A DNA stretch of 64,000 nucleotides from Limonium bicolor (Eukaryota; Streptophyta; Magnoliopsida; Caryophyllales; Plumbaginaceae), in the NCBI GenBank assembly GCA_023374045.1, contig CM041778.1, positions 94,242,839-94,306,838 on the forward strand. The letters are read 5' to 3'. The translations under genes and the position numbers were made by a program. The notes below the pieces were generated by a model that did not search any database, was not told the DNA's origin, and saw only the letters and a program-made list of their open reading frames with translations. Position 1 is the first letter of the stretch; every line of letters starts with the position of its first letter. This document shows positions 11,239-56,898 of the stretch, piece by piece.

Positions 11239-11616
11239 GACAAAGGGAAAGATAAGAAGGTTTTGTGTGCCCAGGACCATGGTGGTGAAAGAGCACATTG
11301 ATTAGAATGTCTTTATCATTTAGATACTATTCCAATAGTTGGATATTTTTGTCGAAACTCCTAAACTTTTGTTCCTAGGGTTTGTAGAGATTTTCAATGC
11401 TACAAAAACTATGAATCGTTCAAGTTAGCTTAGATGAGAGGTTGTAGTATAAGAATCAAAGTATCCTTCAAATTAACCATTTTGTTTCTTCTCGCCTCTT
11501 TTACAACTCGTTCACAACCTTAGTGCTTAATTTATATGTGACCTTTGTTTTCCAGTTCGCTAAGAGTGTGTATTCCCTGCTTTGCAAGCATTCTCACTGA
11601 GCTAGTGCTCTTAACA
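11239..11616. other. non-coding flank of the MULE
   Basis: AT-rich single-copy-looking sequence up to the left inverted repeat of the MULE. No domain, hairpin or repeat is recognised. Confidence 0.4.
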
Positions 11617-11700
11617 AATGAGGGTCACTACGCTCAGTCGGGTTTTCACTTCGCTCAGTCGGAAAAAGACTATTTGCCCCTACTATAATAATTTTCAAAT
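11617..11700 (+). repeat. left terminal inverted repeat of the MULE
   Basis: AATGAGGGTCACTACGCTCA begins the repeat. CAGTCGGGTTTTCACTTCGC and CTCAGTCGGAAA follow, then TTTGCCCCTACT. The reverse complement of 22470-22555 shows the same order with a roughly 14-base insertion after GAGGGT. Confidence 0.85.
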
Positions 11701-11756
11701 ATTTCTATATTTACCCACAATTTATGATATATTACAAGGTGACCCCAAATTTCATT

Positions 11757-11794
11757 ATATAAAGGAATTGAATATGATATGAAATCATATTCAA
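11757..11794 (+). promoter_or_regulatory. TATA box and adjacent palindrome upstream of the transposase gene
   Basis: TATATAAA (11757-11764) lies 82 bp before the ATG at 11846 and about 140 bp inside the TIR. Directly after it an 11-bp perfect inverted repeat (TTGAATATGAT, 11768-11778; ATCATATTCAA, 11784-11794) surrounds the expected transcription start. Confidence 0.6.
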
Positions 11795-11845
11795 ATTCAG
11801 AAATCCTAAAGTTAGAGAGATAAAGTTAAGAGATAAAGAGAGGAA

Positions 11846-14554
11846 ATGGTTTCTTTCGGAAGTTTGAAGAAAAAACTGTTCGGTAAGAGTAAAAAAGATG
11901 GAGGAAATGCTGAAGGTGGTGTTCCAGAAACACAAGACGAGAATGCAGATGATGTTAGGAGCGAGGAGTATTCACGAGGAGCTCAATCTGAGGTACTTTC
12001 TGTTGTTATTTTAGTAATTTATGTACAAAAGTAGCTAGAATATTACAAAACTGAACGAAAAAAGCAAGGAAAAAACGCCGTGCCCACCCCGGATATGGTG
12101 CGCCTGCGCCCTCCTTTCTCGCGCGCGCCTGCGCGCACCCAGGCTCAGCCGCGCCCCGCGCCCACCCTGGCTCAGCCGCGCCCGCGCCCACCCTGGCTAC
12201 GCTCCGCCCGCCCACCCGGCTCAACGCGCGCCTGCGCGCCTCCCTTGATGCGGACGCCGGCGCCGGCGTCTTTAGGTCGGCGCCTGCGCCGGTGCCCGTT
12301 TTTCAAATCGCTGTATCTTCTTCGTTATTGCTCCGTTTTTCGATTCGTATGCGCCGTTGCGTTTGTATTTTCATGTACTTTACGATGATATACTTTGCTG
12401 ATTATTTTGATGGCTTATGTGTGATTTATTCTAAAGTACGTAGTATTAGGGTTTACGAGTAGCACTTGATGAATAACGACGTTTTTCTGCTTAGGGTGAT
12501 AACGATGATGAATTCGAGGATGCGAACGTAGACACAAGTCATGTATTTAATAGTAGCCTAATCTTTGGCGATAAAGAGGAGGCGGTTGGTTATGCGTTTC
12601 GCACCGGAGAGGCTAATAATATTTATCTAATCAGACAGACTAAGCGAGACGACGGTGAAGTAATACTAACGTGTGAGAGGTACGGCAAGCATAGGCCACG
12701 GGTTAGCACAGGAGAATCGTCATCGTCGAGTCAAAGGCCACGGCGTGCCACGAAGAAATACAACTGCCCTTTCCGCCTAAGCATCAGGGGTGGGGTTCAG
12801 ATGGGCTGGTCTGTCTTGGTAATGGTCCCGATGCACAACCACGCGTTAGCGAGGAACCCGCAATCTCACTTCGTCCGGCCTCGCTTTAGCGTCGACGAAA
12901 GGGCAAGCATGAAAAGTTTGTACAGGAGTGGTGTTGCGCCTAGGCAGATGTGGGCCCATTTACATGACAAGAACCCTGAAAGTACTGCAGACAAGACATC
13001 GATTCATAACCTAGTTTCGAAATTCAGAAAAGAAGATCGTGGCGGACGTACAGATGTAGCGTCCTTCATGCACTCGCTAGATGAACGTAATTATAGTTGG
13101 TGGTCCGAGAAAGATGTAAGTAAGTGTCGGCACATCTGTTTAGTGTTGGTTTATTTGTATGTTAATCACTTTAAATGTTAGTTCTAATTAAATGTCCATT
13201 TTGCAGGGAATCCATCTAGGCTGGGTCTTGTCTTGTTTGCGCACCCTTTTTCGCTGACGCTCGTTAAGATGTTTTCTTATGTAGTGCTCATTGATAGCAC
13301 TTACAAGACGAACATGTACAAGGTGCCTCTAGTGGAGTTCATCAGAGTCACGTCGTGTGGCAAGAACTTCTGTATAGCGTTCTGTTTTGCGGTCAGAAAG
13401 AATGAGTCTGCATACACGTGGATGCTTAATCAGCTGACGAAGGTGTTGATCTATCCTCCAAATGTGTTTGTCACTGACAATGAAAAGGCGCTAGTAAAAG
13501 CACTTTTAGTGGTATATCCTTCTGTACCACATCTTCTATGTCGTTGGCATATATGCAAGAACGTGGCTGCCAATGCGCTCAAGATAATGCATATTGACCG
13601 TGAGAGAGTCAATTTAATAGTGCATCGGTGGAAGCGACTAGTTTACGCCTCAACTATTGCGAAGTACGATGAACAGTACGGGAAATTAGTACACTCCTAC
13701 GGTGCCAACAATCCTTTCGTTGTGTACTTGAACAACACATGGCTATGTCAGTGTGAGAAATTTTGTGAGGTATGGGTTAAGAGATTCAGGCATTTCGGCA
13801 ACACATCTACCAACAGGTTAGCTTAACTTCAATTGTCAACATGTTCTGTTGTTTGTATTGGTATGTTTCCCATTTATCTGCTACTAATTCACTTCCAATG
13901 TATAGGGCGGAGAGCGCCCACTCAGCTCTAAAGTGTTGGCTTCATACATCCACCGGATCTCTAGACACATGCTTCAATAGCATACATAGATTCGTCGAAG
14001 GGCAACATTTCCACATTAAACAAGACTTCGAGTTCTCCATTGACAGAAGGGTTTCGGAAGACCAGCAAGTCCCATTTTTATTTCTGGTCAATCAAGTGAG
14101 CCTCAAATGTTTGGAAATACTCCAGGATCAGCTGAGAAGCGGGAGGTGCGATATTGACCACACAACATCGTACGAAGATGTTTGTGCGTTTACTTCGACC
14201 ATGGGATTACCGTGCCCGTTTCGTATGTTTCAGTACATTCAAGCCGGTCTGAATATACCAGTTGAAGAAGTGCATATCTTCTGGCGAACACCCAGATATG
14301 ATGCACAACAAGAATTTGAAGCACAACGCCAAACATATGATGAGTCGTATAGCACAGAGGAACAACTCTCATGTGTAGGTTTATGGTATGATGATCTGTC
14401 TCAGCGGTATGATCCTACGACGATCGAACAAGCGTTCAACGCGTGGAAGCCAATATGGGAGCCCGAGGATGATCACACTGGTTTACAGCCACCAGAGGTG
14501 AAGGTGCCTAAGGGTAGGCCCACAACCAAAAAAAAAGAAGAGGCCAAACACTAG
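11846..14554 (+). CDS. FAR1-type MULE transposase, four exons
   Basis: Inferred exons are 11846-11992, 12495-13119, 13207-13816 and 13906-14554. All junctions are GT/AG and keep one frame. Exon 1 gives a short basic N-terminus, KKKLFGKSKK. Exon 2 gives a FAR1/WRKY-GCM1 DNA-binding domain with Cys in LTCERYG and NCPFRLSI and the HNH of PMHNHAL. Exon 3 gives the MULE DDE core: first Asp in VLIDSTYKTNMYK, second Asp in VFVTDNEKAL, then the CxxH motif LLCRWHICKNV. Exon 4 opens with the Glu-bearing RAESAHSALKCWL. A SWIM finger is not evident. The frame runs into an A-tract near 14530 and stops at 14554; the neighbouring frame continues the basic tail (KRPNTRDKSEHEH), so a 1-base homopolymer indel probably split one longer protein with the OTU domain downstream. 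The product should bind the TIRs and catalyse excision and insertion in the nucleus. Confidence 0.88.
12076..12312. other. GC-rich tract inside transposase intron 1
   Basis: Dense GCGCGCCTGCGCGCC-type and CACCCTGGCT repeats lie inside an otherwise AT-rich intron (11993-12494). The same 15-mer, on the same strand, occurs in the GC-rich tract near the right end of the MULE (about 22084-22098). Open frames here are a by-product of composition. Confidence 0.85.
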
Positions 14555-16379
14555 GGACAAGTCCGAGCACGAGCATTTAGGTCTTGGAAACCGTGGCCCG
14601 GGCCTACGACGTTCGCAGTCTCAGCGACGCCCGACAGCCCCCGAAAGTACAAGTGATCGTGGGCCGTCAATGCAACACAGTCATCACAGCGTTTCCCATA
14701 TGAGGGAATGAGTCAAACTGGAGAAGGACCGACAATGCAACACAATCCACCTCAACAACCTGCACAATATCTGACATACTGGAGCCCCTGGAAATTCTCC
14801 CAGTATTGGAGAGACCTCGATCCGCAATTAGCTAATTATATTATAGGTTACAGGGAGATAGTGGGTGATGGAAACTGTGGGTTTCGAGCTATTGCTAATG
14901 CCGTGTACAACGATGAACGCCAATGGAAACAGGTTAGACGTGCATGCTTGGAAGAGCTGGAGGGAAGAAGAGATTGATGGTTAAATAAAGTTGAGCGAGT
15001 TTGGTACGACATACAGTACTTTCGACTGAATTGGTTTGGAGACGGTTTCGCACCGACGCCACACTAGATTGAAATTCTAGATCTTGGTGTCATCTTGTGC
15101 ACTGTATACCACATTGCGCTTATCAGTTTTTCTAAACAATACGATGGTAGGGCTAGTGGGTTGGTTGTAGGGATGACAATGGGTCGGGTTTGGGTCGGGT
15201 GAACCATCACCCGCACCCGTCACCCGACTTCACCCACTCCACCCGTACCCGACCCGTCACCCGTTATGTATCACCCATCACCCGTTTCACCCATCACCCC
15301 TGGGTGAAGCGGGTGAACCCGTTTACCCATTTACCAATTTGTTTTTCTTTTTACTTGTTCGCCACTAAGGTTCGCAAATTACTGTGAGTGGAGAGAAAAT
15401 AGAGACACAAAACATGTATGTTCTATGTTCGCTGGTTAGGATTGTGAAATTTACTTCAGAGAAAATAATGAAATATTGCACAGAGCATGTACAGTCCATG
15501 TTCACCAATTTTGGTTGCAAAATTACCATGAGTGAAGAGAGAAAATAGAGGCGCGGAGCATGTATGATCAATGTTCGCCTGTTAGGATTACGAAATTACC
15601 TTCAGTGAAGAGAATGAAAAACTTCGTAGGGCATGTAAGTTATTTGTTTTTCAGTTAGGGTTTCAAAATTACCGAGAGTGAAGAAAGAAAATAGAGGCAC
15701 AGAGCATCTTTGTTCCATGTTTTCCAGTTAGGGTTGTAATTACTTTCAGTGAAGATAATTAAAAACTGCGTAGAGCAAGTATGCAAGGGCTGTAAAATTA
15801 TTGAGAGTGGTGAGAATAAAGAATGGCGCAGTCACCCAGAGCATGAATGTTCCTTGTTTACTAGTTAGGGTTACAAAAATCATGAGCGAAGGAGAATGAA
15901 TAATAAGTAACAATTTAACATATAATATATATATAATCTATACGGGTGAGCGGGTCGAGTGATGGGTGAAAAATGTTCACCCGTCACCCGACCCACACCC
16001 GTACCCGTTCCACCCGTCACCCGTTTTTCACCCGTTTTATGCGGGTTTTTCACCCGGTTTAGCGGGTCGGGTGACCGGGTGAAATGGGTACCCGCGGACC
16101 CATTGCCATCCCTAGTTGGTTGCACTGCCGCTACGTGATGATCGGGGGTTAGGTCGTCCAGTGGCAGAGGTCACTATTGCATGTGTCGCTGAGCAGTCTC
16201 ATTTCATTAGACTCCAAACAGTAAAAAATTGTCCAGTCCCAGTGTTGAATCCGATGTGGCGACGTTGGCATGAGCCCTCAGTTACAGCTTATATTGAGCT
16301 GTTCTTACCACACAATGCAGAGTGGTACAGATTGTTTCCCCCAACTAGTGGATCTGGACAGTTGATTATAGAAGATTAG
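14555..16379 (+). pseudogene. OTU-type cysteine protease domain, C-terminal to the transposase, split by hAT
   Basis: The frame at 14708-14977 carries the OTU active-site signature GDGNCGFRAIANAV (about 14863-14905), where Cys is the nucleophile. After stops (14975-14977 and one near 15062) the domain continues to 15167, where a hAT element is inserted. It resumes at 16123-16379, which holds the His-bearing strand (EQSHFIRLQ) and a C-terminal tail ending IIED. Removing the hAT and one TSD copy restores the same frame across the junction. OTU domains remove ubiquitin from proteins. OTU domains fused to or following MULE transposases occur in plant genomes, but their role in transposition is not established to my knowledge. 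This copy is inactive: two stops and an insertion. Confidence 0.85.
15168..16114. mobile_element. non-autonomous hAT element, 947 bp, with perfect 8-bp TSD
   Basis: The left end is TAGGGATGACAATGGGTC and the right end is the inverse, GACCCATTGCCATCCCTA in frame with it (one mismatch). The 8-bp direct repeat GTTGGTTG flanks it exactly (15160-15167 and 16115-16122), the hAT signature. Subterminal CACCCGTCACCCG-type motifs crowd both ends. The interior is a decayed minisatellite with recurring AGAAAATAGAGGC, GAGCATGTATGTTC and TTAGGGTT blocks (about 15370-15890). No transposase is encoded, so it must have been moved in trans. Confidence 0.95.
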
Positions 16380-16444
16380 AGTTTGTAAAATTTTGTTGAA
16401 TTCTTGTATGCCATTAATATATTCAAGAAGGTTGTTGTAATGTT

Positions 16445-17915
16445 TTGCAAGATGAAAGTATTGAAAAAGGACACTTAATTTGTTGAATATTGTAGTGTCT
16501 CATGTTGGTACATCGGATTATACTTTATCTAATAAAAGCAAACTCATCGTAGATACAATGCGTTCTAATACTACTGCTGTTAGCGACTCAACGGCCAACA
16601 AAGAATTTAGACCACCCAGGATGGCATTGATCTTAAGAAGCACATTGACACCTTATTTTCCCAAAAAAAGAGTTATAGAATATATTTCATCCGTTCACAA
16701 CATCAGGAAGGTTAGCGACTCAACGGCCAACAAAGAATTTTTGCAAGATGAAAGTATTGAAAAAGGACACTTAATTTGTTGAATATTGTAGTGTCTCATG
16801 TTGGTACAGCGGATTATACTTTATCTAATAAAAGCAAACTCATCGTAGATACAATGCGTTCTAATACTACTGCTGTTAGCGACTCAACGGCCAACAAAGA
16901 ATTTAGACCACCCAGGATGGCATTGATCTTAAGAAGCACATTTGACACCTTATTTTCCCAAAAAAGAGTTGTAGAATATATTTCATCCGTTCACAACATC
17001 AGGAAGGTTAGCGACTCAACGGCCAACAAAGAATTTTTGCAAGATGAAAGTATTGAAAAAGGACACTTAATTTGTTGAATATTGTAGTGTCTCATGTTGG
17101 TACAGTGGATTATACTTTATCTAATAAAAGCAAACTCATCGTAGATACAATGCGTTCTAATACTACTGTTGTTAGTGACTCAACGGCCAACAAAGAATTT
17201 AGACCACCCAGGATGGCATTGATCTTAAGAAGCACATTTGACACCTTATTTTCCCAAAAAAAGAGTTGTAGAATATCATCCGTTCACAACATCAGGAAGG
17301 TTAGCGACTCAACGGCCAACAAAGATTTTTTGCAAGATGAAAGTATTGAAAAAGGACACTTAATTTGTTGAATATTGTAGTGTCATGGTACAGCGGATTA
17401 TACTTTATCTAATAAAAGCAAACTCATCGTAGATACAATGCGTTCTAATACTACTGCTGTTAGCGACTCAACGGCCAACAAAGAATTTAGACCACCCAGG
17501 ATGGCATTGATCTTAAGAAGCACATTTGACACCTTATTTTCCCAAAAAAAGAGTTGTAGAATATATTCATCCGTTCACAACATCAGGAAGGTTAGCGACT
17601 CAACGGCCAACAAAGAATTTTTGCAAGATGAAAGTATTGAAAAAGGACACTTAATTTGTTGAATATTGTAGTGTCTCATGTTGGTACAGCGGATTATACT
17701 TTATCTAATAAAAGCAAACTCATCGTAGATACAATGCGTTCTAATACTACTGCTGTTAGCGACTCAACGACCAACAAAGAATTTAGACCACCCAGGATGG
17801 CATTGATCTTAAGAAGCACATTTGACACCTTATTTTCCCAAAAAATAGTTGTAGAATATATTTCATCCGTTCACAACATCAGGAAGGTTAGCGACTCAAT
17901 GGCCAACAAAGAATT
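16445..17915. repeat. 296-bp tandem array, five units, with internal 30-bp duplication
   Basis: The start landmark TTGCAAGATGAAAGTATTG recurs at 16445, 16741, 17037, 17329 and 17621 (steps 296, 296, 292, 292). Units differ by only a few substitutions and 1-4-base indels. Inside every unit the 30-base string starting GTTAGCGACTCAACGGCCAA occurs twice, about 140 bases apart, so the unit itself arose from a smaller repeat. The array lies between the convergent gene sets of the MULE. Confidence 0.95.
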
Positions 17916-17928
17916 TAGACCACCGGAC

Positions 17929-18190
17929 AAGATGCTGATCCTTACTTGGTCCACCAAGGGTAACTTTTCAAGTATACCTTCGTTCACAACATCAGGAAGG
18001 TTACTGATTCTATCCGTCACTAACGATCGAATTTTGGCCCATCTGTGTTTCTAACCACTGGACAAGATGTTGATCCTTACTTGGTCTACCAAGGGTAACT
18101 TTTCAAGTATACCTTCGTTCACAACATCAGGAAGGTTACTGATAATGAATGCATTTTGGCCATCAATAATCGTAGGCTGAATACCATACG
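17929..18190. repeat. 131-bp tandem duplication next to the 296-bp array
   Basis: GACAAGATGCTGATCCTTAC (17929) recurs as GACAAGATGTTGATCCTTAC (18060). Both are followed by GGTAACTTTTCAAGTATACC and a CAACATCAGGAAGGTTA block that is also part of the 296-bp unit. Confidence 0.9.
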
Positions 18191-18502
18191 TATAGTGACT
18201 TCATGTTGAGTGGATGCTTTTATCCCATTTTCAGCACTTCAAAAGTAAGATTGCTTTGTCGTCGGAGATTGCTCAAAAAAATGTTTTTTTTTCTAATTAA
18301 ATGTAATTGTACACATATTTGAAACATATTATCAACACTTCAAAAGCGATTCTATTTTAGAGTTTCATTTCCAATCAACTTTGTTCACACGTCATTTCTC
18401 ATAATGTTACAACTTATTCCACACACACATCATTTTAAGTCTTAAAACAAATAACAGTTCTGATGACTACCAGTACATGAAAGCCAAATGTGGTTGCACT
18501 GA
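18191..18502. other. non-coding interval between array and the - strand genes
   Basis: AT-rich with no recognisable features. It would contain the 3' ends of the convergent transcripts. Confidence 0.4.
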
Positions 18503-18955
18503 TCAAGCAGGAGGCGGTCGTCTCCTTGTACTAGCCCTGTAGCGTGAATTTTGTTCCCTACGGTACGCCTCAGCCCTGCTTCGTATTACATCTGGGTCTT
18601 CGAAGTCTGAATCATCTTCATACTTCACAAGAATCCTAACTCTTTCCATTATTTCTCCAAGGTCTAAGTAGTTCTGCAACATCATGCGTACGTCCGCATC
18701 GGTCAGTATATCGACGATAGAGTCGTTGTACAGATCTTGGTCCATCCTAAGGTAGACAATGGAGAAGACGTTGAGTTGCTGATTATCAAAATGTGATCTG
18801 ACAATTTGATTTAATGAAGCTGTTAGGTTGTTGACACTTCTCGGAGTTCTAATTTCTGTATTGATCACTGCCCATCCCGGAGCACGTTGGAACCGTGCCC
18901 CGTATTCACTGAGTGCGGTGTAATGGTTCACATGAATTGCAAAGGGAATTGACAT
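18503..18955 (-). CDS. small protein, possible MuDR N-terminal-like domain
   Basis: About 150 codons, intact, ending in a basic RRRPPPA tail. I chose the ATG at 18955 (MSIPFAIHVNHY) because the preceding TTATTAG could equally be a splice acceptor. The middle (QLNVFSIVYLRM, then ILTDADVRMMLQNYL and RVRILVKYED) has the order seen in the N-terminal domain of many plant MULE transposases: a strand with polar basics, then I-x-(D/T)-D-x-D-V-x-x-M, then an acidic strand. That is pattern similarity only. It lies 3' of the PMD gene on the same strand, separated by about 90 bp that may be an intron or a spacer. It could be a separate gene, a last exon of the PMD gene in another frame, or an unrelated protein. 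Confidence 0.5.
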   Translation of the reverse strand: MSIPFAIHVNHYTALSEYGARFQRAPGWAVINTEIRTPRSVNNLTASLNQIVRSHFDNQQLNVFSIVYLRMDQDLYNDSIVDILTDADVRMMLQNYLDLGEIMERVRILVKYEDDSDFEDPDVIRSRAEAYRREQNSRYRASTRRRPPPA

Positions 18956-19046
18956 CCTAATAAACAAGAATGAATTATTTAAAAACCAAATAAACATAAA
19001 TTAAAATTACAACAACCACACAAGTTTAAGCATCAATACAGAATGT

Positions 19047-21780
19047 TTAAAAACAACATAAACTAATAAGTCTACTAATATCCAAACCCCCACCACTATA
19101 CCCACCCCTACCATACCCACCACCACCATACTCACCCGCCCCAGCCCCAGAACCACCACCAGCATGTCCTCCCCTGCCATCACCATGCCCTCCCCTCCCA
19201 TCACCCTGTCCCCTCCCATCATCACCGCGCCCACCATCACCCTCATAACGACGCGTCTGCTCCATGTGCCTACGGTGCATACCCTCCCCTCTAGGCCTAA
19301 GGCCTCTGGTGCGACGCCCCGCGATGTACCACTCCATGCCAGCACGAGGCTGGTTAGGGTTCCTGTGACGTGTGGGCGAATCAGGGGTGGTCGGGACATT
19401 AAGCCGGCAGTACTCAAAGGCCATCTCCAGCGTATCAGCCGCCCACGTGGGGAAACCCGTGGGCCAGCCCGGGTTGTTCTCCGGTGCGACACTCAATATA
19501 AGCGGCGCTGTCTCATCCCAATACTACAGTAAGGTATACATGTGAAGTTAGTATTTAAAAACAATTACAAACAACAAAAAAAATTTAACAAGACAAATTA
19601 TTTACCTGGAGCTGATCCTCTCGTCGTGTATTGGGCCCACCGTCTGCTCCTAGTCGACACACCTGAACATGAGAAACGCGCTGAAACCACCGGATGTAAT
19701 CCGGGGCCACGGCCCATGCCATTGACGCCCGCGCCAGAGGAAACCTCCACCTGCTGGGCCCTGTCGTGTTGTCCCACACGGCTGTCCCGTAGTCGTACGT
19801 AGCAAGGTACGTCTTCCCATGTCTGGGACGATAATGGCTGTCGGGTCTGATAGGCTGAGGGGGGATAGTCTGCACGTATCCAAACTGGCGCAGACACCGC
19901 TCCGGCATATACGGCTCAGCAATATCCAAGAACTGTATGGTGCCATAGTACCGGGAGCGCGCCTGTGATATGAGGGCACCCTCTGCCTCAAATGGCAGCC
20001 AAGTAACCTATGTTTCATTTAATGGAAAACAATTAACAAATTAAATGGGAAACAATGTTTGACGATACGTTAAACGTCAACTTTTTATTACTACAATCGC
20101 TAAGCAACTCGTACCTCAGTAGAGGACATCGTGTCCAGCCGTCCCCTCACGAAACGTAGCCTCTCATCATCCATCAAATTCCGCGTGTAACGAGGCCACC
20201 TCGCCGCCGTCGGGGAGCAACCATCCCAGTCTGAAAGGGGCTGCGGTCTGAACATGGGGAAGTACTCGTAGATCCAGCACTGCGGTGATCATCCGAAAAC
20301 ATTAGCCAGGATAGTCAAGGTGTAACTTTACAATACTTAAGTCGTGAGCTCGCAACCAAGTTCTCACCTGAAACAACGTCAGACAACCAGCCAGCTGACG
20401 TGTATCCGCCCGGGAAGCGATGCCGAGCTATCGGTACAGGTATGCCAGTGTGCCGGTCCCCCACGCATACAAGTGGACCCTACTAGGGTCACGGATGGGC
20501 CAGTAGGACGTGGGCATAACACGATCCCCGCCCTTGTCGATGATCAATGAGTGGGACACCAGCCACCAGAGGAAGGCCGTCGTCTCCTGAAGGGGGGTAG
20601 AGTATGGACCGCCACAAGTATCATGAAGAGCTCTGTAACGTACCTGACTCTTCTCCAGGAACCTACAGTTTATCAGCTCCTGCTGGTCCGCCGAGCCAAA
20701 CAGCCGTCGGAAGTGGGGGATGAGAACCTGTAACGGTGGGGCCGCTAAACCGAGGCGGGCGCCATCCTCGGGCTGGTACGAAATCGCCATGCCGGTGATG
20801 GGGATACCCAAAATGTGGTAGACGTCGTGGAGAGTAATAGTCATCTCTCTGAATGGCATGTGAAAGGAGTTCGTGTCAGGCTGCCATCTCTCCACGAACG
20901 CTGAGAGGAGCGCGAGGTCAAAACAACCATGCGCTATGTCGACAAGATGCGCAAGTCCGCTATCCTCGACCGCTGCTACAGACTCTGGGTGCATCAATGT
21001 ACTCAGAGTCCACGCCTCCAAATACTTTGTCTTAGGCTTGAAGCTAAGACATCCCTTCTCCTGTTGAATATTTATAATTGAGATCACACTATGTTAACCA
21101 TTTCCTAAACAATCTAAAATTTTATGGAATCTATTACCAGACGGGAAACATACCACTCCTCGCCACACGTCTAGCGCGACGTGACCACCAAAACTCGGGA
21201 TCAAACTCGTATCCTGAGGGCCTCCGGGCACTGGAGTCTGCCCAAGCAGCCAAGCATCAGCAGCCGGCATCTGCGCCAACCCCTCTGCCGGACCATGTAC
21301 TGGGGACCGGCGACGACGGCGCACCCGTGTGCCCTCATGCTCAGCACCCGGCTCATCCATATCCTCGTCATCAGCGTCAGCCTCGCCATGACATGCGTCT
21401 CCGGTCCCCCTCTGTGGAGGAGTAGGCCAAGAAGGACTATCAGACCTCACGACCAGCGTCCCATCGCCGATCAATGAGTCCAGATCCACACCATGTAGCT
21501 GGTCCACCTCCTGCTCCTCCCTCTGCTCCTCCTCCTCCTCCTCCTCCCCCTGATCCAGCTCATACTCCGCCCACAACCTCTCCTCACGGGCTCGTAGAAA
21601 CTCAAGCTCCCTTCGATTCCTTGACGAAGCTGTAGCGTACTGCGTACGCCTCCTCTCTGTAGCAGCTGCATCAGGTCCGGTCACACGAGGGTGTGATGAG
21701 CTCTCGCCTCGGTCAGAAATCGACTTACCCTTACCCAGACCGAACCTACCTAGCAAACCCTTGCCCTTTCCTCCCGCCAT
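19047..21780 (-). CDS. plant mobile domain (PMD, MAIN-like) gene, five coding exons
   Basis: Inferred coding exons on -: 21780-21154, 21060-20368, 20279-20115, 20007-19606, 19523-19047, all with GT/AG borders and one continuous frame, about 788 codons. The start MAGGKGKGLLGRFG follows a possible acceptor (CAACAG). The N-terminal third is low-complexity with a Glu-rich run. PMD hallmarks follow: TSLIPSFGGHVALDVW at the end of exon 1, then MTITLHDVYHILGIPITG, FLWWLVSHSL and CWIYEYFP across exons 2-3, and YVQTIPPQP and WVAPDYIRWF-like strands in exon 4. The C-terminus is Gly/Tyr-rich (GGGYGRGGYSGGG). One lesion is visible: TAG at 20428-20430 where YLYRQLG is expected. PMD proteins include transposon-encoded and domesticated forms (MAIN/MAIL1). 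Their molecular function is unclear, and a transposition-helper role here is inference. Confidence 0.85.
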
Positions 21781-21980
21781 CTGTTGTTTACCGTAGAATT
21801 TAGTCATACTATTTTTACAGTTAGTCAAGACCGGTCGAGGTTAGTCAATACCGGTCATACATGCATCTCAGTAGTTCAACGTCAAAAATAAATTTATACA
21901 AATCCTGGAACTGATTAAAACACGCATAATAGAGGTATACAATGTAAAAAACGACCAATTATATAACAAAACAGCAAAAA

Positions 21981-22190
21981 ACGAGCCCCGAGCGTTCCCG
22001 GCAGCTGGCGCCCGCGCGCCCTCTTCCTCCCCGGCGCCCGCGCCCTCTCTTCCTCCCCGGCGCCCGCGTCCTCTCTTTCTCCTGCGCGCCTGCGCGCCGT
22101 CTTGGTCCCCGACGCCCGCGCGCCGTCTGCGTCCCGCGCGCCCTCCGTCTTCCCGGCGCCAGCGCGCGCTCTTCCCTCCCCCGATTCCGA
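21981..22190. other. GC-rich tract near the right end of the MULE
   Basis: Runs of CCCCGGCGCCCGCGC and TGCGCGCCTGCGCGCC lie between the PMD start codon and its TATA box, probably in a 5' UTR intron. Position and composition mirror the tract in transposase intron 1 at the left end. Confidence 0.85.
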
Positions 22191-22438
22191 TTTCGTCTTG
22201 TTTTTCTTGCTAAATTTGCTACTTTTACTACTATTCTACGCTAAAAAACTGTAAATTATGACAAAAAAGAACCTGATTTTGCAGATCAAACTAGCAGAAA
22301 TGATGACTTCAGCACCGGCTTTCCTCCTGCTCCCGCTCCCGCTCCAGTTACCGCTTCTAGAGAGAAGTCAGAGAGAATTCTAGAGAGATAGAGAGTTTTG
22401 AGATTTTGAAATTTTGTGGAGAGATAATAGAGGGTAAA

Positions 22439-22451
22439 GGTGTATATATAG
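22439..22451 (-). promoter_or_regulatory. TATA box of the PMD gene
   Basis: On - the string CTATATATACACC lies about 105 bp inside the right terminus, mirroring the TATATAAA of the transposase gene. A long purine/pyrimidine-biased leader follows without an ATG, so the first exon is probably untranslated. Confidence 0.55.
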
Positions 22452-22469
22452 GAGAATTTAAGAGTAAGG

Positions 22470-22555
22470 GCAAAATGGTAAAGTTTTTTAAATTTCCGAC
22501 TGAGCGAAGTGAAAACTCGACTGAGCGAACGAGTTCAGTAACAAATACCCTCATT
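22470..22555 (-). repeat. right terminal inverted repeat of the MULE
   Basis: CCGACTGAGCGAAGTGAAAA (22497) and CTCGACTGAGCG, then ACCCTCATT (22547-22555), are the inverse of the left end. Beyond it lies GGGTGCCGA, which does not match the nine bases left of the element. Confidence 0.85.
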
Positions 22556-28069: not shown

Positions 28070-29362
28070 TCACTGCTCGAAGAGGGAAGGGAACTTAGCA
28101 CGCAGCTCTTCCTCGAGTTCCCACGTCGCCTCCCGTTCTGACTGATCAGACCACTGCACTTTAACCATAGGCAGTGTCTTACTACGAAGCCGACGAACAT
28201 CCCGTGCTAAAATACGAACCGGAGCTGCTTCATAAGTGAAATCATCCCGGAGTCGAAGCTGACCATAGTCAATCACATGCGAAGGATCGTGCAGATACTT
28301 CCTGAGCATCGACACATGAAACACATCATGCACTCCAGCTAGAGCTGGTGGCAATGCCAATCTGTAAGCTACCGGCCCAACCTTCTCAAGCACCTCAAAC
28401 GGCCCTACGAACCGAGGGCTCAGCTTGCCTCGCTTACCAAAACGAACAACACCCCGAACTAGAGAAATCTTCAGATACACATGGTCTCCCACCTGAAACT
28501 CAAGCGGACGGTGCCTCTGATCTGCATAACTCTTCTGCCGGCTCTGGGCAACCAACAAACGCTCCCTGATAGTCTTGACTTTGTCCACAGCCCCCTGTAC
28601 CAACTCAGGACCCACAATCGCCCTCTCTCGCAGGTCGTCCCAACAAATAGGAGATCTACAGCACCTACCATACAATGCCTCATATGGAGCCATCCCAATG
28701 CTCGATTGAAAACTATTATTGTAGGCGAACTCAATCAATGTCACATGCTGATCCCAGCTGCCCCCAAAGTCGAGCACACAAGCCCTCAACATGTCCTCCA
28801 AAATCTGATTCGTCCTCTCCGTCTGCCCATCGGTCTGAGGATGGTACGCTGAACTGAAAGCCAAATTCGTCCCTAACGCCTTATGCAGGCTCCACCAGAA
28901 GCGAGATACAAATCTCGGATCTCTGTCCAAAACCATCGTCACCGGCACACCATGCAGCCTCACAATCTCATCTACATACAGCCGAGCCAGGCGCTCAAGG
29001 CTGAAGGTCTTCCTCACAGGCAAGAAATGGGCTGACTTCGTCAACCGGTCCACAATCACCCACAACACATCGTACCCAGAAGATGTCCTAGGCAGCCCCA
29101 CAATGAAATCCATCCCAACGCTCTCCCACTTCCACTCAGGAAGGAAGGGCTGTAGAAGACCCGCAGGTCGCTGATGCTCAGCCTTCACCTGCTGACAGGT
29201 TTGGCAACGAGCCACAAAATCAGAAATCTCCCTCTTCATATTCGCCCACCAAAAGGACTCTCTGAGGTCCCGGTACATCTTCACCCCTCCTGGGTGCACC
29301 GAATAAGGAGCTCCATGAGCCTCCTGCATAATCTCTCGCCTAAGGTCGCCTCCACTAGGCAC
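28070..29362 (-). pseudogene. chromovirus integrase with chromodomain-like tail
   Basis: The 430-codon open stretch contains the zinc-finger part (HPGGVKMYRDLRESFWW then CQTCQQVKAEH). The DDE core follows: VGMDFIVGLPRTSSGYDVLW, DRDPRFVSRFWW, and GQTERTNQILEDMLRA. A GPF/Y-like segment (KLSPRFVGPFEVLEKVGPVA) comes next. The C-terminal VKVQWSDQSEREATWELEEE is the aromatic-rich chromodomain-like end that targets chromatin in related elements. The core residues look intact. The break from RT lies upstream (29363-29605), where the frame is lost. Confidence 0.92.
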
Positions 29363-29520
29363 ACAAACTCTGCCTCTAAAGCGTAGCAGTCATCGCTGGA
29401 CACAGAAACTCTGACCCTGATCATCTGACAACTTCTCCCTGATCTTACACAACTCAGCATCAGCCTTCTGACCCTCTCTGATCCGCTCAATCAAAGTAGA
29501 CTGGACCTGAATCGAAGCAA

Positions 29521-31440: not shown

Positions 31441-32517
31441 ACTCGGTCTGAGTCACGTCTCGCTCACCAGCTAGCGCATACACACGTGCCTGGGTCTGGG
31501 GCTTCTTCTGATCAGCCTTCTGCCCGGACCCTGAACCAGCACCCTCGGCCCTCAGAATCGCTACTCCCCCTCCACCTCTAGCCTGTGGACACTGGGCAAT
31601 GCGGTGATCCAGCGAACCACACTTGAAGCACGCCCCGGACTTCCTGTAGCACTCCCGTCCTGGGTGAAAAACGATCACACTCGCACACTTCTCCACAGCA
31701 GGAGATGCTGATGAAGAAGAACCCCGGTCTCCTCTATACTTCTTCTTCTGAGAAGAAGGCTGCTCACGCCTCTCGGGCTCCTCCACACGACCCTTCCTCT
31801 TCTAGTCTTTGCCCTTATCGGGCCTCTGGTCCTTTTCTCATACCGCTGCCTAGCCTGCAGCTCAGACTCCAACCAACGCCACATCGGCCACATCCCTGAA
31901 GGTCTTGTGGCGGAAAGGTGCCACAGCAGCTCGAATGTCGCCCTCAGACCAGCCTCAAACTTCCTAGCCTTCCGGTTGTCATCTGGCTCTGGCACAAACT
32001 TAGAAAGGGAAATGAACTTCCGCACGTACTCATCCACAGACATCTCCTTCGTCTGACGAAGCCTCTCATACTCAACTATCTTCTGATCCCTGAAGACATC
32101 GGGATAGAACTGCTGATTGAAGCAGCCCCTAAACTGCTCCCAAGTCCATGGGTGGGGGTACTTCCCTTCAACTGACTTCCACCACTCCTTCGCCTCACTC
32201 TGAAACATGAAGGTAGCGAATCCGACTTTCTGATCCTCCTCACACCCCATGACCCGCAGAAGGTCCTCAATGGCGGTAATCCAGTGGCTCGCCTCCTGTG
32301 GGTCGCCACTGGCATCGAAAGAAGGCGGCTTCAGCTTCAGAAACTCCTGAAGCGCCTTCACATTGCTGCCCCCCGCGTTACCGGCTCCTGTCGCCTGGCC
32401 AGCAGTGGCCCCTACGGTCTGCAACACCTGGGTCACCACCTGCTGTACAATCTCTGCAATGTCCCCTTGGGGAGCATCGCCTGAAGCTGCACCACGTCCT
32501 GAACGTCGGGGAGGCAT
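31439..32517 (-). pseudogene. chromovirus gag
   Basis: It starts MPPRRSGRGAASG at 32517. The retrotransposon gag domain follows (FLKLKPPSFDASGDPQEASH, then FATFMFQSEAKEWW and FNQQFYPDVFRDQK). The frame shifts near 31870 and continues in another frame that carries the zinc knuckle CFKCGSLDHRIAQC (CX2CX4HX4C) near 31640-31600. The product would form the virus-like particle. Confidence 0.9.
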
Positions 32518-32625
32518 ACTGAAGATACAACACCAAAATTATCAGAAACCATCAAGAATCAAACAGCAGACCTTTCAGACACCCACGCATGCAGACAAAC
32601 CCCACAAACACCAAAGAATGAGCAA

Positions 32626-42227: not shown

Positions 42228-42438
42228 ATTGCCTAGGGTAATTCTCTAGGGTAGGGGGCGAGGTTCCCCTTTAGAAAGAAAGAATCACCTCTATACCCTG
42301 CAGGGGGCTGTAGCTCGTTACTACTTTATTAAAGCTTTTTTATATAAACGATTGCATCCTGATAAAGTTTCACGTATCTCGAAGCTTACAAATAAACAAA
42401 GCTAACAAAACAAAATAAAGAAACTAATAAAATTCTCC

Positions 42439-44400
42439 TTGAGAATGCTCACAGGACTATTCTCAGAAGTGGGGCCCTTGACCCCCAATGAAAGGAAAAG
42501 ACACGTCCACGAGGTTCACCGAGAACTCCCGGACAAGAAGGATACGAAACATCAAAAGCTCCCCCCAATTTACTTCACTGAGGATGATGAAGACGGAGTC
42601 CTGTACCCGCATAACGACCCACTGGTCATAAGGGCTCAGGTGAGCGACCGCATGATGGAAGGAATCCTGGTCGACAGTGGAGCAGGTGCTAATGTCATTT
42701 CTGCCGAGGCGGTAAAGAAACTCGAGATCCCGGAAGATAGGATCAAACCCTATTCAGCTGTACTGGGTGGTTTCGTAGGAGGGATCTCGGCCAAGTCTAC
42801 AGGGAGCATCGACTTCACTATCACCCTAGGACAAGGGGATGAGAGACACACGGAAGAGTTGACAGCCTTCATCCTTCCCGGGCTTTCTGGGTACAATATG
42901 TACCTCGGGCGACCAGGAATAAATGCCTTTAGAGCCATTTGTAGCACCCACCATCTAAAAATGAAGTACCTGACCAGGTCAGGGAAGCTCGTTACGGTAA
43001 GAGGAAGCCAGAAAGTCGCACGGGTATGCGAGGTGCGGATCATGGAGAACCTACCAGGAAATGAGACTGTCAAAACCGTGGGGTCCGAGAAGGAATTCAA
43101 GGGAAAGCTTCCCCTCCCCGACGAAACAGCAGAGCGGTATGAGGCACCCGCTGATCTCCCAAAAGAGGTACCTCTACGAACTAACCCCAACAAATTCTTT
43201 AAAATTGTAAATTCCTTTGACAGCGAAGAACAAGTCCATCTAACAAGATTCCTGGAAAAAAGAAGGGCCACATTCGCCTGGAGCACAGAAGAGATGCCCG
43301 GAATAGACCCAAACGTTATCCAGCATGATCTCAACGTAGACCCAGCGCACTCGGCAATCCGCCAAAGAAGAAGGGTGATCGGAGCAGAGAGGGACCAGGC
43401 TGCTCGAGAAGAAGTCCAAAGACTCCTGCAAGCAGGTTTTATCAGAGAGGTATCATACCCCAAGTGGCTGGCGAACGTAGTTATGGTAAAGAAATCCAAT
43501 GGGAAATGGAGAATGTGTGTGGATTTCACCGACCTAAACAAGGCATGCCCCAAAGACTTTTACCCGTTGCCATCGATAGATCGACTGGTCGTCTCATCGG
43601 CCCAAAGCTCCGTCTTGTGCTTTCTAGATGCGTTCTCCGGGTATAACCAGATAAAGATGAACGAGAAGGACTCCGAGAAAACTTCTTTCGTCACCTCAGC
43701 AGGAATCTTCTGCTACAAAGTGATGCCATTCGGATTGAAAAACGCCGGCGCGACTTTCCAACGAATGATAGACAAAGTGTTCCGGGAGCAACTCTCGAGA
43801 AATGTGGAAGCTTATGTGGATGATATAGTCGTGAGAAGCCCGTCCAAAGAACAACACATGAAAGACTTGGAAGAGACATTCACCACGCTCGACAAATTCC
43901 AGATCAAACTAAACCCGGAAAAATGTGTATTCGGGGTCACCAAAGGAAAATTCCTTGGGTTCATCGTTGGACAGCGGGGAATAGAGGTGGACCCGGAAAA
44001 AACCCAGGCGATTCTCGACCTCAGCCCTCCCAGAAGCATTAAAGACGTCCAAGCCCTCAACGGGAGACTCACAGCCCTGAGCAGGTTCTGTTCAAAGCTA
44101 CAGGAAAAAGCAATCCCGTTTTTCAACACGTTGAGAAAGAACAGCAAGTTCCAGTGGGGACAAGAATGCAAAGAAGCCTTCGAGAAAATCAAAGAGATGC
44201 TTCGAGAATTACCCAAGTTGGGAGTCCCAACGCCCGGTCAAGACCTCTACCTCTACCTGTCCGCATCGGCATGGGCAGTGGCAGCGGTCCTAATCATGGA
44301 GGACAAAAAGAAGAAGATTCCCGTCTACTACACAGGAAAGATCCTGACTCCCGTAGAAAGACGTTACACTAATCTAAAATTTCTCTGGCCTATGGCCCAT
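42439..44400 (+). pseudogene. Tat protease and reverse transcriptase, truncated RNase H
   Basis: The aspartic protease motif DSGAGANVIS lies near 42673-42702. The RT domain follows: GFIREVSYPKWLANVVMVKK, DFTDLNKACPKDFYPLPSID, FLDAFSGYNQI, and the catalytic YVDD at about 43813 (EAYVDDIVVRSP). RNase H starts (LYLSASAWAVAAVLI, then YYTGKILTPVERRYTNLKFL) and is cut at about 44400, directly at the stop codon of the antisense gene. About 700 codons are uninterrupted. The open frame continues past 44400 to 44586 only as the complement of the antisense gene. Confidence 0.92.
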
Positions 44401-47400
44401 CTAAGTCTCCTTTACAGTGTCAAGATTCGCGGGAGCAGCCCCTTGTACGCTCTCCGAAGACCCAGACCTCCCGGCAGAGGACCGGACGCCGACACCACCC
44501 TGATGCGTGGTGCTCCCGGGAGGAAGAAAAGACGCCTGGCCAGGAACAAGGCACGTCTCCCCAGGAAGGCGCCCGAACTTCTCTAGCACCTCGTGAAAGG
44601 AGGTCTTCTGCGCAACCTCCTTAAAAGACAACTCCCGGTAAAGGCCGTCGTCCATAACCTCCCCCTTGCCGGTAAAAAACCTCGACACAATTTGGCGGCA
44701 CGATTTAACCATCCTTCCGCATTGAGAGGTGAAGGATTCCTTTAGATGGGCGAGCTTCGTGCTCTGCTGCTGCAGGTCCTCCCGCACCTTCCGAGAATAA
44801 GCCTCGAGACCGGACACCTGTTGCTCCAGGGTGTGAGCATAAGCCCGGTACCGATCGCGGTTGGCATTTGCGGCAATCAACTCTTCTTCGAGGTCATCGA
44901 TCCGCATGTTCAATTTCTCTAGCCCCTCGACGGGATTCCCAGACCGCGAGCCTAAACAAAGAAAGGGAGAGGATAAAAAACTTTTAACAAAAAGGGCGAG
45001 GAAAGCAACGAAGGATGATTGGGAAAGTGAAGAATCACCTTTCGCGGCCAGCTCGGAGTTTTCCAGCCGCAGCTTAGCAGACTCCTCCTCCAGCACCCTT
45101 ACTTTCTCTTCGGAGGAAAACCGTTGCTCCTCGGAGGTCGCAAGCTCGCCGGACAGCTTGTGACGCTCGGCGGATAGCTTCTCTTTTTCGGAGGCCATGA
45201 CCTCGCCCGCCCGGGTCGCCTCCGCCGCTTTTCCCTCGGAAGACAACAGCTCCCCTTTTAGGAGAGCATTCGCCTCAGAGATAGAATGAAGCTCTTGGGA
45301 AAGCTTAGCCTTATCCTCAGCAAGCAACGCCTTCTCCTGCGCTAAAGCAGCCTTCTCGGTACGAAGACTCTCAACCTCTTGATCGTGGGAAGCTCGGGCC
45401 TGCCCCACCAAGGACTCGAAGTCAGAAAAGGCAAACGACCGGGCGTCAGCAAACTCACTTCGTACCTTTTTAAGAGACGTGGCTTCCGTCTCCAGCGACC
45501 GGACCTGACCCTTGAGGGAAAGGTTCTCCTCACGCAGCCTCTTCAGCTCCTCGTACTCGTCGCACTGTTTCGTGCACGCCCGGCGGGCATCACCCAGCTC
45601 CTTCTTCATGGTCGCAGTCTGCTCATGCACCCGCCTGGAAATCTCCTCCTGAACGGTATCAACAAAGATGTTGTTGGAAGACCGCTCTATCCTCAACTCC
45701 TCCTGAGCATTACGGGCCCGGCATTCCTTGAGGTGGAGCTTCGAGCGGAGAGACTTTACGTGCACATCCACACCTTGCGCAAAGGCCACCGTCTATACAA
45801 AACAAAACAATGAGCATAAGAAGGTTTAAAAGAGCAGGCAACACCAAAATTAAAGCCAAGCCAAGCCACTCACCCGGTAGATCCCCTGCCACATGAGGTT
45901 AAGCGAGGCGTCAGAGGGGGAGTGACGCATGATAGCGTCCGCTCCGCCTTCCCCAATCCTCAACCTCTCCTTGGCCGCAGTCGCAGTCTTCATAGGAGCA
46001 AAAAGACCATCAGGAGAGTTGGAAATTCGGGTTGCCTCTTTCCATACTTTGACGTAGGAAGATGACTCCGTCACGGGCAACACAGGGAGAGGACGACCGC
46101 GGTGGTAGAACCAGCCATCCTTCGCAGACGGCCCACAGAAGGAGTCACCGACGGGCGGAGGAGGAGAGGACGACGTGCCGGCACCGGTATCCTCTTTTAC
46201 CCCCGAACAAGGCTCTGGGTCCGCAGGCACCCCCTCAGCTGCATCCGGCGCAATACCCGCCCCGCAGCCGCTTCCCCCAGGTAATGAAACCCCGGGCCCA
46301 GAAGGGGCAGTCTCCTCCGAAAGCTCCCGTTGTGGAGCGGTATCTGAAGCACCCGACTCATCGAGGTGCACTATGTTAGAAGCCTTCATCCTTTTGGCCA
46401 TATGCTTCACCCTACCCTTCGAAGCAAGGACCTTCTGGCGATGAGGAGTTGACGACGGTTGACCGGGCGCCTCGCCCGCGCTAGATGGTCCTACTCTCTC
46501 CCCGGCCCCGACCTTCTCGACCCCGGGAACTGTAAAGCATGAAAACATACAAAAGTAAGTAAACTCAACAAGCAGAATCAGACATCAGTAGCAGGTGACA
46601 GTTAAGGCAAAAAAAAAAACAACAAGAGCCGGAACAAAAAGCACGAAGGACAAAGCCGCACATGCACTCTCTCTCTCTCTCATCCCATGGACTAAGGTTA
46701 AGGTCTGACCCAAGCGTAGGAGGAAGAAACACCCGGCGGCCGGAACCTGCACTAGTGTACCAAGTACCTGGTTGATTAGAAGTGTCAGGCGACCGGGCCT
46801 CCGGTGTCCGGGGATACCCCTCTTCTCTAACCCGCGTCGGCCTCTGCTTCTTCGCTGGGTGCTCAGCTTCATCCCCAGACCTCTTCCGGCCAGCAACCAC
46901 CGCCTCTTCTTCGCGAAGAGCCAACTTCTCCATAGCATCCAAGGTGGCATAATAATCCACCTTCCCTTCCCCCGTCTTGAAGGACACCAGCTGCCAACTA
47001 TGGAAGGGGCCCACCTTTGCCCCGAGCTGAGGGAAATCTGCGACAAGAGGGAGATAGATAAGAAGGAGCCGAAGCAGAGCTAAAGCGAAAAGAAAGCAGG
47101 AGGGGGGGAAGAAAACTCTTACCCTCAGAATGCGCAAGCGAGGCCAGGCGCGGACTGGTGAAAAAGTCCTCCATGCTCGGATGAAGGTCACTCACCGCCT
47201 TCAAGACCTTGGACATGCGGAGCTCCGATTTGGGCAACGTTAGGCAGTATAAGGAGCCCTTAATAATTGAAGGGCAGTAGGCAACCCCGAGATACCGCCC
47301 GGTAGGCGGGACGATGACAAACCACCGCGCATTCCAACATTGGGCAAGCTCTTCTACTCGAAAAGTGAATACCCAGACCGCCCGGATATGGTCAGGTTGC

Positions 47401-55828: not shown

Positions 55829-56878
55829 ATGGGGGAGAAGGATCAAAACCCTGAGGATTCTAACAAAGGGAAAGGGAAAATCGGAGTCGTCGATGGAGGA
55901 GAAACCGGAAAAACGGAAATCGACTCCCAAGACCCATTATACCTGCATCCAAGTGATAACCCAGGGATGAAGATCGCTCATGTTTACAATGGAAAAGAGG
56001 GCTTCGCAGGATGGAAAAGGGCGGTCACCGTTGCCCTAAAGGCGAAGAGCAAATTTGGGTTGCTCGATCGCTCGATACAACCTCCGCAACCTGAAGATGG
56101 TCGATACTTGCTCTGGGAAAAATGCAATCACATGTTGATAGCTTGGTTATCGCAGTGTGTTGCCCCAGACATTGCAGACTCGATTCTTTATTATTCCAAT
56201 GCGGCCGATGCTTGGGACATGATTTGCGGACGGTACGAGCAGGCGAACGTGGCCCAGATTTATGCGCTCAAGAAGGAACTCGGGAAGCTAGAACAGAGCA
56301 AGAATCGATCTCAGTGTATTACACAAAAATGAGAAAAATCTGGGACGAGTTAGATCTGTTGGACAAGAAACCCACTTGTTCTTGCCGCCAAGAAGGAATA
56401 CTTCGATCTGCGACAACGCGAGAAAACCCTACAGTTCCTGATGGCGCTCAACGATAATTACTCAACTGTCGTGAGTAATATCCTTCTACGAGATCCTTTA
56501 CCCTCCCTTGTGCAAGCTTATGCTCTAGTAATCCAGGAAGAACGTCGAAGACAGATTCCAGTCCGTAGCGGCACTCCTACTCAAGAAACCCTAGTTCTCG
56601 CAGCTGACAGAGGGAAGAATGTCTCTTATCAGGCGCAAAGAAGAACCCAGAAGGATCCCAACAAGCAGAACTTACATTGTTCAAAATGTCAAAAGAAGGG
56701 ACATACGAAGGACATGTGCTTCGAGATAGTGGGCTATCCCGACTGGTGGAAGAAGAAAAACAGTCCAAACAGCAACAACAATTCCATCGCGGGAGTAGTA
56801 ACAAATGGAGAAGCATCTGTCACAAGGCGCACAAATGAAGTCTCGCCAATCTCTGGAGTCTCGCCAATCCTGGCCTAA
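55829..56878 (+). pseudogene. copia-B gag
   Basis: Starts MGEKDQNPEDSNKG. The N-terminal copia gag domain is clear (YLHPSDNPGMKIAHVYNGKE, then WKRAVTVALKAKSKFGLLD). Two 1-base shifts (near 56305 and 56395) move the frame. The zinc knuckle CSKCQKKGHTKDMC (CX2CX4HX4C, about 56675-56720) lies in the last frame, which stops at 56876-56878. The product forms the virus-like particle. Confidence 0.92.
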
Positions 56879-56898
56879 ACGCCCAACAATACAACAGG

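Follow-up and report, generated by a model that had tools for sequence, protein, structure and literature searches.

A convergent FAR1-type Mutator-like element of Limonium bicolor with a transposase carrying an OTU-like tail and a plant mobile domain protein that may act against silencing

We analysed a window of 64,000 nt from Limonium bicolor (GCA_023374045.1, CM041778.1:94,242,839-94,306,838, forward strand; assembly size 2.92 Gb) and found that the stretch between positions 11620 and 22538 is a single insertion of a Mutator-like element (MULE). It belongs to a recent, high-copy family of FAR1-type MULEs in which a transposase with an OTU-like tail reads inward from the left end and an antisense gene for a plant mobile domain (PMD) protein reads inward from the right. 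The interest of the element lies in the likely function of this PMD protein. An earlier note on the same DNA, which had the anatomy mostly right and the ends wrong, named PMD only as a partner protein; by its predicted fold a PMD relative resembles VANC21, a transposon protein that removes silencing marks set by the host, and this suggests a function for PMD. We lean towards the view that PMD is a VANC-fold anti-silencing factor acting in trans, within a recently active, two-unit convergent MULE of the FAR1 type.

According to this view, the left unit would produce a transposase comprising the FAR1 domain, the MULE catalytic domain, a SWIM-like part and the OTU-like tail, which would excise the element and insert it with duplications of mostly 8-9 bp, and the convergent right unit would produce the PMD protein. 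From the VANC21 fold we infer that PMD may bind motifs within non-coding repeats of its own element, located in the array, introns, leaders and ends, and may relieve host silencing in trans, so that both genes would be transcribed; the OTU tail, in turn, may remove ubiquitin from the transposase or from chromatin at the element's ends. We are somewhat less ready to extend this to the whole PMD class, although it is quite conceivable that PMD proteins of MULEs, Ty3/gypsy elements and the host MAIN/MAIL genes are all VANC-fold, sequence-specific DNA-binding regulators of silencing, the host versions being domesticated forms with a reversed output. If so, transposable elements would use PMD for anti-silencing on their own repeats, and two separate stories of plant transposon silencing would be joined. 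Host genes required for meristems and silencing contain PMD, as do many plant transposons, and an anti-silencing PMD would explain why the domain turns up repeatedly, often in antisense, in gypsy elements and several groups of plant MULEs. Its function has been described as unknown, in a paper that also repeats the anti-silencing idea (PMC8616336), and we found no link between PMD and the VANC structure in the open-licence PMC literature. The DNA-bound structure of VANC21 turns PMD function into a testable question of DNA binding, motif and loss of silencing, and the fold match raises the possibility of sequence-specific regulators of the epigenome beyond Arabidopsis.

The ends of the element were set by its other copies and by the target site duplications. 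The insertion starts with GAGGGTCACTA at 11620 and finishes with GAACGAGTTCAG at 22538, and all 20 fetched left-end copies start with GAGGGTCACTACGCTCAGTCGG. The same evidence ruled out the ends proposed in the earlier note, 11617 and 22555, which took in flank letters, and showed that the match between AATGAGGGT and ACCCTCATT, taken for the element termini, is flank sequence. The terminal inverted repeats that it described are present, beginning 11 bp inward of each true end, and the outermost 11 bp of the two ends are not complementary to each other. Each arm contains a paired CGCTCAGTCG motif. At the right ends of L018 and L022 one of the two motifs is absent, yet both copies have target duplications of 8-9 bp; a single motif may be enough, or the second may have been lost later.

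Around the common ends we found duplications of the 8-11 bp type that characterizes the Mutator superfamily. Among 12 two-ended sequences, window included, exact direct repeats across the ends measured 8-9 bp in seven and 6-7 bp in three, giving 10 sequences in the 6-9 bp range; one more had a repeat of 4 bp and one had no exact repeat. As a control, 132 mismatched flank pairs were compared, of which 124 had no repeat, five had repeats of 4-5 bp and three had repeats of 8 bp; two of these three are accounted for by L013 and L014, which have both flanks in common and therefore count as one site among the 12. The 11 other two-ended copies are 8,768-9,583 bp long, compared with 10,919 bp in the window.

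Table 1. Features of the MULE insertion and its surroundings, in positions of the window
Feature	Position	Strand	Remarks
Left target site duplication	11612..11619	.	TAACAAAT; identical 8 bp after right end
Whole MULE insertion	11620..22538	+	10,919 bp; ends set by other copies and target duplications
Left arm, 35-bp inverted repeat	11631..11665	+	97% complementary; two CGCTCAGTCGG motifs, 21 bp apart
TATA-like box, transposase gene	11756..11763	+	136 bp inside left end; by eye; in 24/28 sequences
Transposase exon 1	11846..11992	+	Spliced model, frame kept
GC-rich minisatellite, transposase intron 1	12122..12245	.	26-27 bp units
Transposase exon 2, FAR1 DNA-binding domain	12495..13119	+	Pfam PF03101, E 2.5e-6
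Transposase exon 3, MULE transposase domain	13207..13816	+	Pfam PF10551, E 6.3e-22
Transposase exon 4 to frame break, SWIM-like part	13906..14526	+	Spliced model; SWIM pattern by eye
Linker and OTU-like domain	14527..16379	+	Split by hAT-like insert; DGNC in 5' piece, SHF in 3' piece
Nested hAT-like insertion	15168..16114	.	TAGGGATG...CATCCCTA; 947 bp; 8-bp duplication GTTGGTTG
Tandem array between the two genes	16443..17916	.	296 bp x 5 units
ORF6, 150 aa	18503..18955	-	No homolog found; own gene or last PMD exon
PMD exon 5, Gly-rich tail	19047..19523	-	Spliced model
PMD exon 4	19606..20007	-	Pfam PMD, E 1.9e-7, under whole-protein cut-off for the exon alone
PMD exon 3	20115..20279	-	Spliced model; GT-AG borders
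PMD exon 2, core	20368..21060	-	Pfam PMD, E 2.9e-22; premature stop 20428-20430
PMD exon 1	21154..21780	-	Spliced model; charged N-terminus, probably disordered
GC-rich minisatellite, PMD 5' leader	22007..22143	.	26-27 bp units
TATA-like box, PMD gene	22443..22450	-	~90 bp inside right end; by eye; in 19/28 sequences
Right arm, inverted repeat	22493..22527	+	35 nt, 97% complementary to left arm
Right target site duplication	22539..22546	.	TAACAAAT; copy of left 8 bp

The two genes agree with what the earlier note had described, namely a spliced FAR1/MULE transposase reading inward from the left and a five-exon PMD gene reading inward from the right, both with GT-AG introns in the spliced models (Table 1). 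TATA-like boxes inside each end were likewise confirmed, among 28 sequences checked, some of which do not extend to the right end. The MULE domain scored over the Pfam cut-off, placing the element in the Mutator superfamily, and the FAR1 domain N-terminal to it scored 28.5 bits against a cut-off of 28.1; no Pfam match to a SWIM zinc finger was obtained on exon 4, where the pattern was seen by eye only. Searches with the transposase protein gave one match at first and nine when the MULE region alone was used. Maize MuDR has two convergent genes, one from each end, and terminal inverted repeats of ~200 bp, and the mudrA-type DNA-binding domain is PF03108. A Pfam scan of exons 2-4 gave FAR1 and no PF03108, and we therefore rejected a MuDR-type transposase; the window's element differs from MuDR also in its 35-bp arms and in having PMD and not mudrB. 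The description "MuDR-like" is thus unsupported or too strong.

The OTU assignment made in the earlier note is right, although weak by Pfam. Pfam OTU scores fell below the cut-off (best E 0.0053 in the window and 0.033 for the open stretch of L028), OTU or C65 reaching 13-16.7 bits against gathering scores of 23.3-24.3. Compared with PDB sequences, the tail matched OTUD5 (phmmer, E 1.2e-4), and a profile of four relatives matched OTUD5 at 2.2e-5 and OTUD3 at 2.0e-4 over profile positions 25-159 (hmmsearch). In addition, DGNC was found in 20 of 21 sequences and DENC in the remaining one, and SHF or CHF in 20 of 21 with one unreadable, which we take to be the catalytic Cys and His motifs of OTU proteins, respectively. 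L019 and L028 both have an open OTU stretch. In some copies, among them L028, the exon 4 frame continues into the OTU-like tail and ends after IIED (300 codons); exon 2 of L028 has a one-base deletion. An uninterrupted transposase-OTU frame starting from ATG was not seen in the sampled copies. A search of the genome for the OTU Pfam family gave just two matches, neither of them the window's element, this method being too insensitive.

Copies elsewhere in the genome showed that the transposase-OTU and PMD genes are a recurring convergent pair. A first look gave 1941 left-end and 1172 right-end candidates, 40 of each being scored, all at 98-100% identity; 27 copies were fetched, 20 of them from the 39 further left-end places and seven from the 39 further right-end places. 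Among the left-end copies, transposase exons 2 and 3 and both OTU segments were present in 20/20, exon 4 in 19/20, ORF6 in 17/20 with a partial ORF6 in one more, and antisense PMD exons 2-5 in 15/20. L025 had exon 5 alone, and L010, L020, L024 and L026 showed no PMD within the 10-kb stretch, the element sequence stopping short there. Three of the seven right-end copies (L032, L033 and L035, the last with its outer left end outside the stretch examined) contained the complete gene set in order, and in L029 and L034 only PMD exons lay within reach of the stretch. The other two, L030 (~5.4 kb) and L031 (~3.2 kb), have both ends: L030 retains the whole of transposase exon 2, exon 3 for the most part, and fragments of exon 4 and PMD exon 1, and L031 retains OTU and, in inverted orientation, a piece of exon 4, without PMD and transposase exons 2-3. 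Overall, 18 of the 27 copies have transposase, OTU and antisense PMD, two are two-ended without the PMD core and seven break off. The pair is thus the rule and not universal; the earlier note had asked whether the two always occur together. Copies with the same ends and without PMD exons 2-5, which it had named as refuting its interpretation, do occur, and these two look like internal-deletion derivatives. Within the window we saw no sign that PMD has separate, unrelated ends, and the two-ended copies enclose PMD between the shared pair of ends.

Selection was assessed by counting, with indels disregarded, how often the sequences depart from the most frequent letter and by comparing these changes with 1000 random placements of the same change types; the copies are interrelated, some with common flanks, and are therefore not independent samples. 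For the transposase (24 sequences), the N/S ratio was 0.56 of neutral for shared changes, with 1 of 1000 simulations as low, and 0.75 for singletons (27/1000), and one stop change was observed compared with 13.3 expected. PMD exon 1 gave 0.65 (86/1000) for shared changes and 1.05 for singletons, PMD exon 5 gave 1.01 and 1.27, and ORF6 gave 0.61 (139/1000) and 0.87. Purifying selection among recent copies, about which the earlier note had asked for both genes, is clear for the transposase, weaker for PMD and absent for OTU. An earlier codon analysis (20, 13 and 18 sequences) had given 0.62 for shared changes over all PMD exons; the value for the PMD core given below was used instead, because it includes more copies and separates the exons. 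An earlier count for OTU (21 sequences) had given 1.16 and 1.24.

Several of these results, and others, weigh against PMD being an anti-silencing factor of this element. The fold that matches VANC21 was predicted for a relative and not for the PMD of the window itself; the sequences are 10% identical to VANC21, and likeness of a predicted fold demonstrates no function by itself. Pfam scans of the window's PMD exons and of the relative P0004 gave PMD and no DUF1985 or VANC-type domain, and VANC21 was absent from the matches of the PMD profile among PDB sequences up to E 10, so that the link is by fold only. A 9-mer count in the arrays, made for a PMD target motif, gave only words of the array units and no binding motif. 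MAIN and MAIL1, the PMD proteins of the host, have an effect of opposite sign, since they promote silencing (PMC5418596). The PMD core (20 sequences) is under weak constraint, with 1.06 of neutral for shared changes and 0.69 (21/1000) for singletons, and carries stops in 9/20. The OTU part with its linker (25 sequences) is under none, with 1.35 and 0.86, respectively, and has stops in 5/25, two of these being the window copy and L009, whose flank is common to both. L030 has kept its transposase part without OTU, ORF6 and the PMD core. With indels left in, 5/20 transposase sequences (window included) read without interruption to the end of exon 4, and complete PMD genes are open in 0/13.

Three other explanations were considered. 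An unlikely one is that PMD is a transposition helper comparable to mudrB, working with the transposase at insertion or end binding and not on silencing, with the VANC fold serving solely to bind the element's ends. The two-ended layout, in which each end has its gene as in MuDR, would fit, as would the solution of VANC21 with DNA bound together with the paired motif in both inverted-repeat arms; however, the solved relative is an anti-silencing protein, and stops in the PMD core are far commoner than in transposase exons 1-4, where they occur in 1/24 sequences, so that a helper, if any, would be supplied in trans. One stop in PMD is common to L015, L016 and L017, and the left flank of L017 differs, suggesting that the element spread after PMD broke, and thus that PMD can act in trans or is dispensable for the jump itself.

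Less likely still, PMD may be a captured host gene of the MAIN/MAIL type, either a passenger or a protein that sequesters silencing factors, such as its partner PP7L, without targeting DNA. Ikeda et al. (PMC5418596) argued that MULEs have twice taken up genic PMD-C and speculated on an anti-silencing use, MAIN and MAIL1 bind PP7L (PMC7156037), and many of our PMD protein matches carry the name MAIN-LIKE. However, the window's PMD lies on a long branch of the PMD tree with no well-supported group, a placement that speaks neither for nor against capture; PMD exons 2-5 recur across the family copies, and the fold match is to a DNA-binding protein encoded by a transposable element. The least probable of these explanations is that the sampled copies are a non-autonomous mass moved by an autonomous element outside the sample, with PMD and OTU as drifting passengers. 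The frequent frameshifts and stops, the open-frame counts with indels left in and the lack, among sampled copies, of an unbroken transposase-OTU frame from ATG would agree with it, but the substitutions in the transposase frame show more conservation than neutrality would predict, and the OTU stretch has stayed open in L019 and L028. Furthermore, 135 of 140 indel columns in the five exons are singletons, mostly deletions and unlinked to homopolymers; we suspect that many of these are assembly errors, and decay of the family is therefore not argued from indels.

The nearest known system for the proposed anti-silencing function is VANDAL21 with VANC21, which resembles the window's element in being a MULE with further genes, non-coding tandem repeats and short, partly degenerate inverted repeats, and in the fold predicted for the PMD relative. 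It differs in its low identity, in having DUF1985 and not the Pfam PMD domain, and in lacking the extra OTU tail. Antisense PMD and MULE-OTU proteins are each already known, and it is the combination of FAR1, OTU and antisense PMD that is absent from the rows of Table 1 of Dupeyron et al. (2019, PMC6446971) outside rows 16-19. In that table, PMD is given for plant MULE groups 42 and 45-50, antisense in several and with 9-10 bp duplications where stated, and the VANDAL entry reads "PMD and/or DUF in half the members". These plant groups are like the window's element in combining a MULE transposase with a PMD gene, and the window's PMD, on the strand opposite to the transposase and inside the ends, has the arrangement of a plant MULE with antisense PMD. 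In the same rows, FAR1 appears in groups 1, 35 and 36 and in a Phytophthora sub-group of group 50, not in the plant PMD groups, and an OTU-type gene only in group 14, a Hydra element ("Ovarian Tumour Gene"). The Jittery group (group 36) shares an N-terminal FAR1 domain and 8-bp duplications with the window's element; it has a SWIM-type C-terminus, for which the window shows a candidate pattern by eye, and differs in that neither PMD nor OTU is listed there (PMC6446971). MULE-PMD fusions have been reported from several grasses and Amborella (PMC5418596).

The closest counterparts of the transposase tail are proteins of Erythranthe guttata (P0123, P0126 and P0128) and Tanacetum coccineum (P0130), in which an OTU-like tail containing a motif of the DGNC type comes after the MULE domain. 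They share 33-39% identity with the window over the MULE region; Tyr replaces the motif Cys in P0130, and P0123 and P0128 end within the OTU-like tail. Ginger1 transposons also carry a C-terminal OTU domain on the transposase, but are of the integrase type and from animals; OTU or Ulp1 is found on Ginger1 and Ulp1 on Mutator elements (PMC2836005). A thin literature search found nothing on OTU attached to a FAR1 transposase or present on a plant MuDR-type transposon. Loci of the L. bicolor genome matching the Erythranthe MULE-OTU protein were numerous (6254 first-look candidates, 59 scored): some, such as C2:247895014, belong to the family of the window's element, many MULE loci matched at ~49% and 44%, and several matched the OTU part (for example, C7:58893670 and C1:237933611).

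PMD itself is very abundant in the genome (9466 first-look candidates, 117 scored, 165 matches), with several matches covering the full domain in one reading. In the model of the relative P0004, pLDDT was <50 in the part corresponding to PMD exon 1. By eye, the N-termini of the transposase (11846-11905) and PMD (21730-21780) are alike, both being K-rich, with LFGK and LLGRFGLGK, respectively. ORF6 had at first been assumed to be a PB1-like domain such as MULE transposases contain; this was not supported by Pfam, PDB sequences, the fold search or 130 fetched proteins. No Pfam family scored over the cut-off, no PDB sequence matched at <0.079, no relative was present among the 130 proteins, and the model (pLDDT 54) gave nothing at E <= 0.001 in the fold search. 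With indels set aside, ORF6 is stop-free in 19/21 sequences. Judging from its splice signals, it is possibly the last exon of PMD, joined through phase-2 donors in the Gly-rich tail, or a separate gene: two phase-compatible donors and an acceptor recur in the copies, with the acceptor altered in most.

The GC-rich tracts and the tandem array reported in the earlier note were found at the positions given in Table 1. The two minisatellites mirror each other in position and have partial matches in other copies, where their length seems variable, and the 296-bp array differs among copies in both unit type and unit number. The window copy is broken by a frame break between the MULE exon/exon 4 and the OTU part, by in-frame stops in the OTU part, by the hAT-like insertion and by the stop in PMD exon 2. 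The hAT-like insertion sits in the OTU reading frame and contains a tandem repeat of 73/146 bp; among the 27 other sampled copies it was found only in L009, whose flank is the same as the window's. At C3:136650428, on the same contig at a distance of 42 Mb, another copy also has the hAT-like insertion and agrees with the window over 1.5 kb or more of the left flank at 99.7% identity, indicating that the locus has been duplicated, either in the genome or in the assembly. Elsewhere in the window, retrotransposon genes (RVT_2, Retrotrans_gag, RVT_1 and integrase) lie at 1501-2814, 28073-29389, 31678-32538, 42406-44583, 56839-60102 and 61875-63998, and LINE-like ORFs were recognized by eye at ~36-39 kb.

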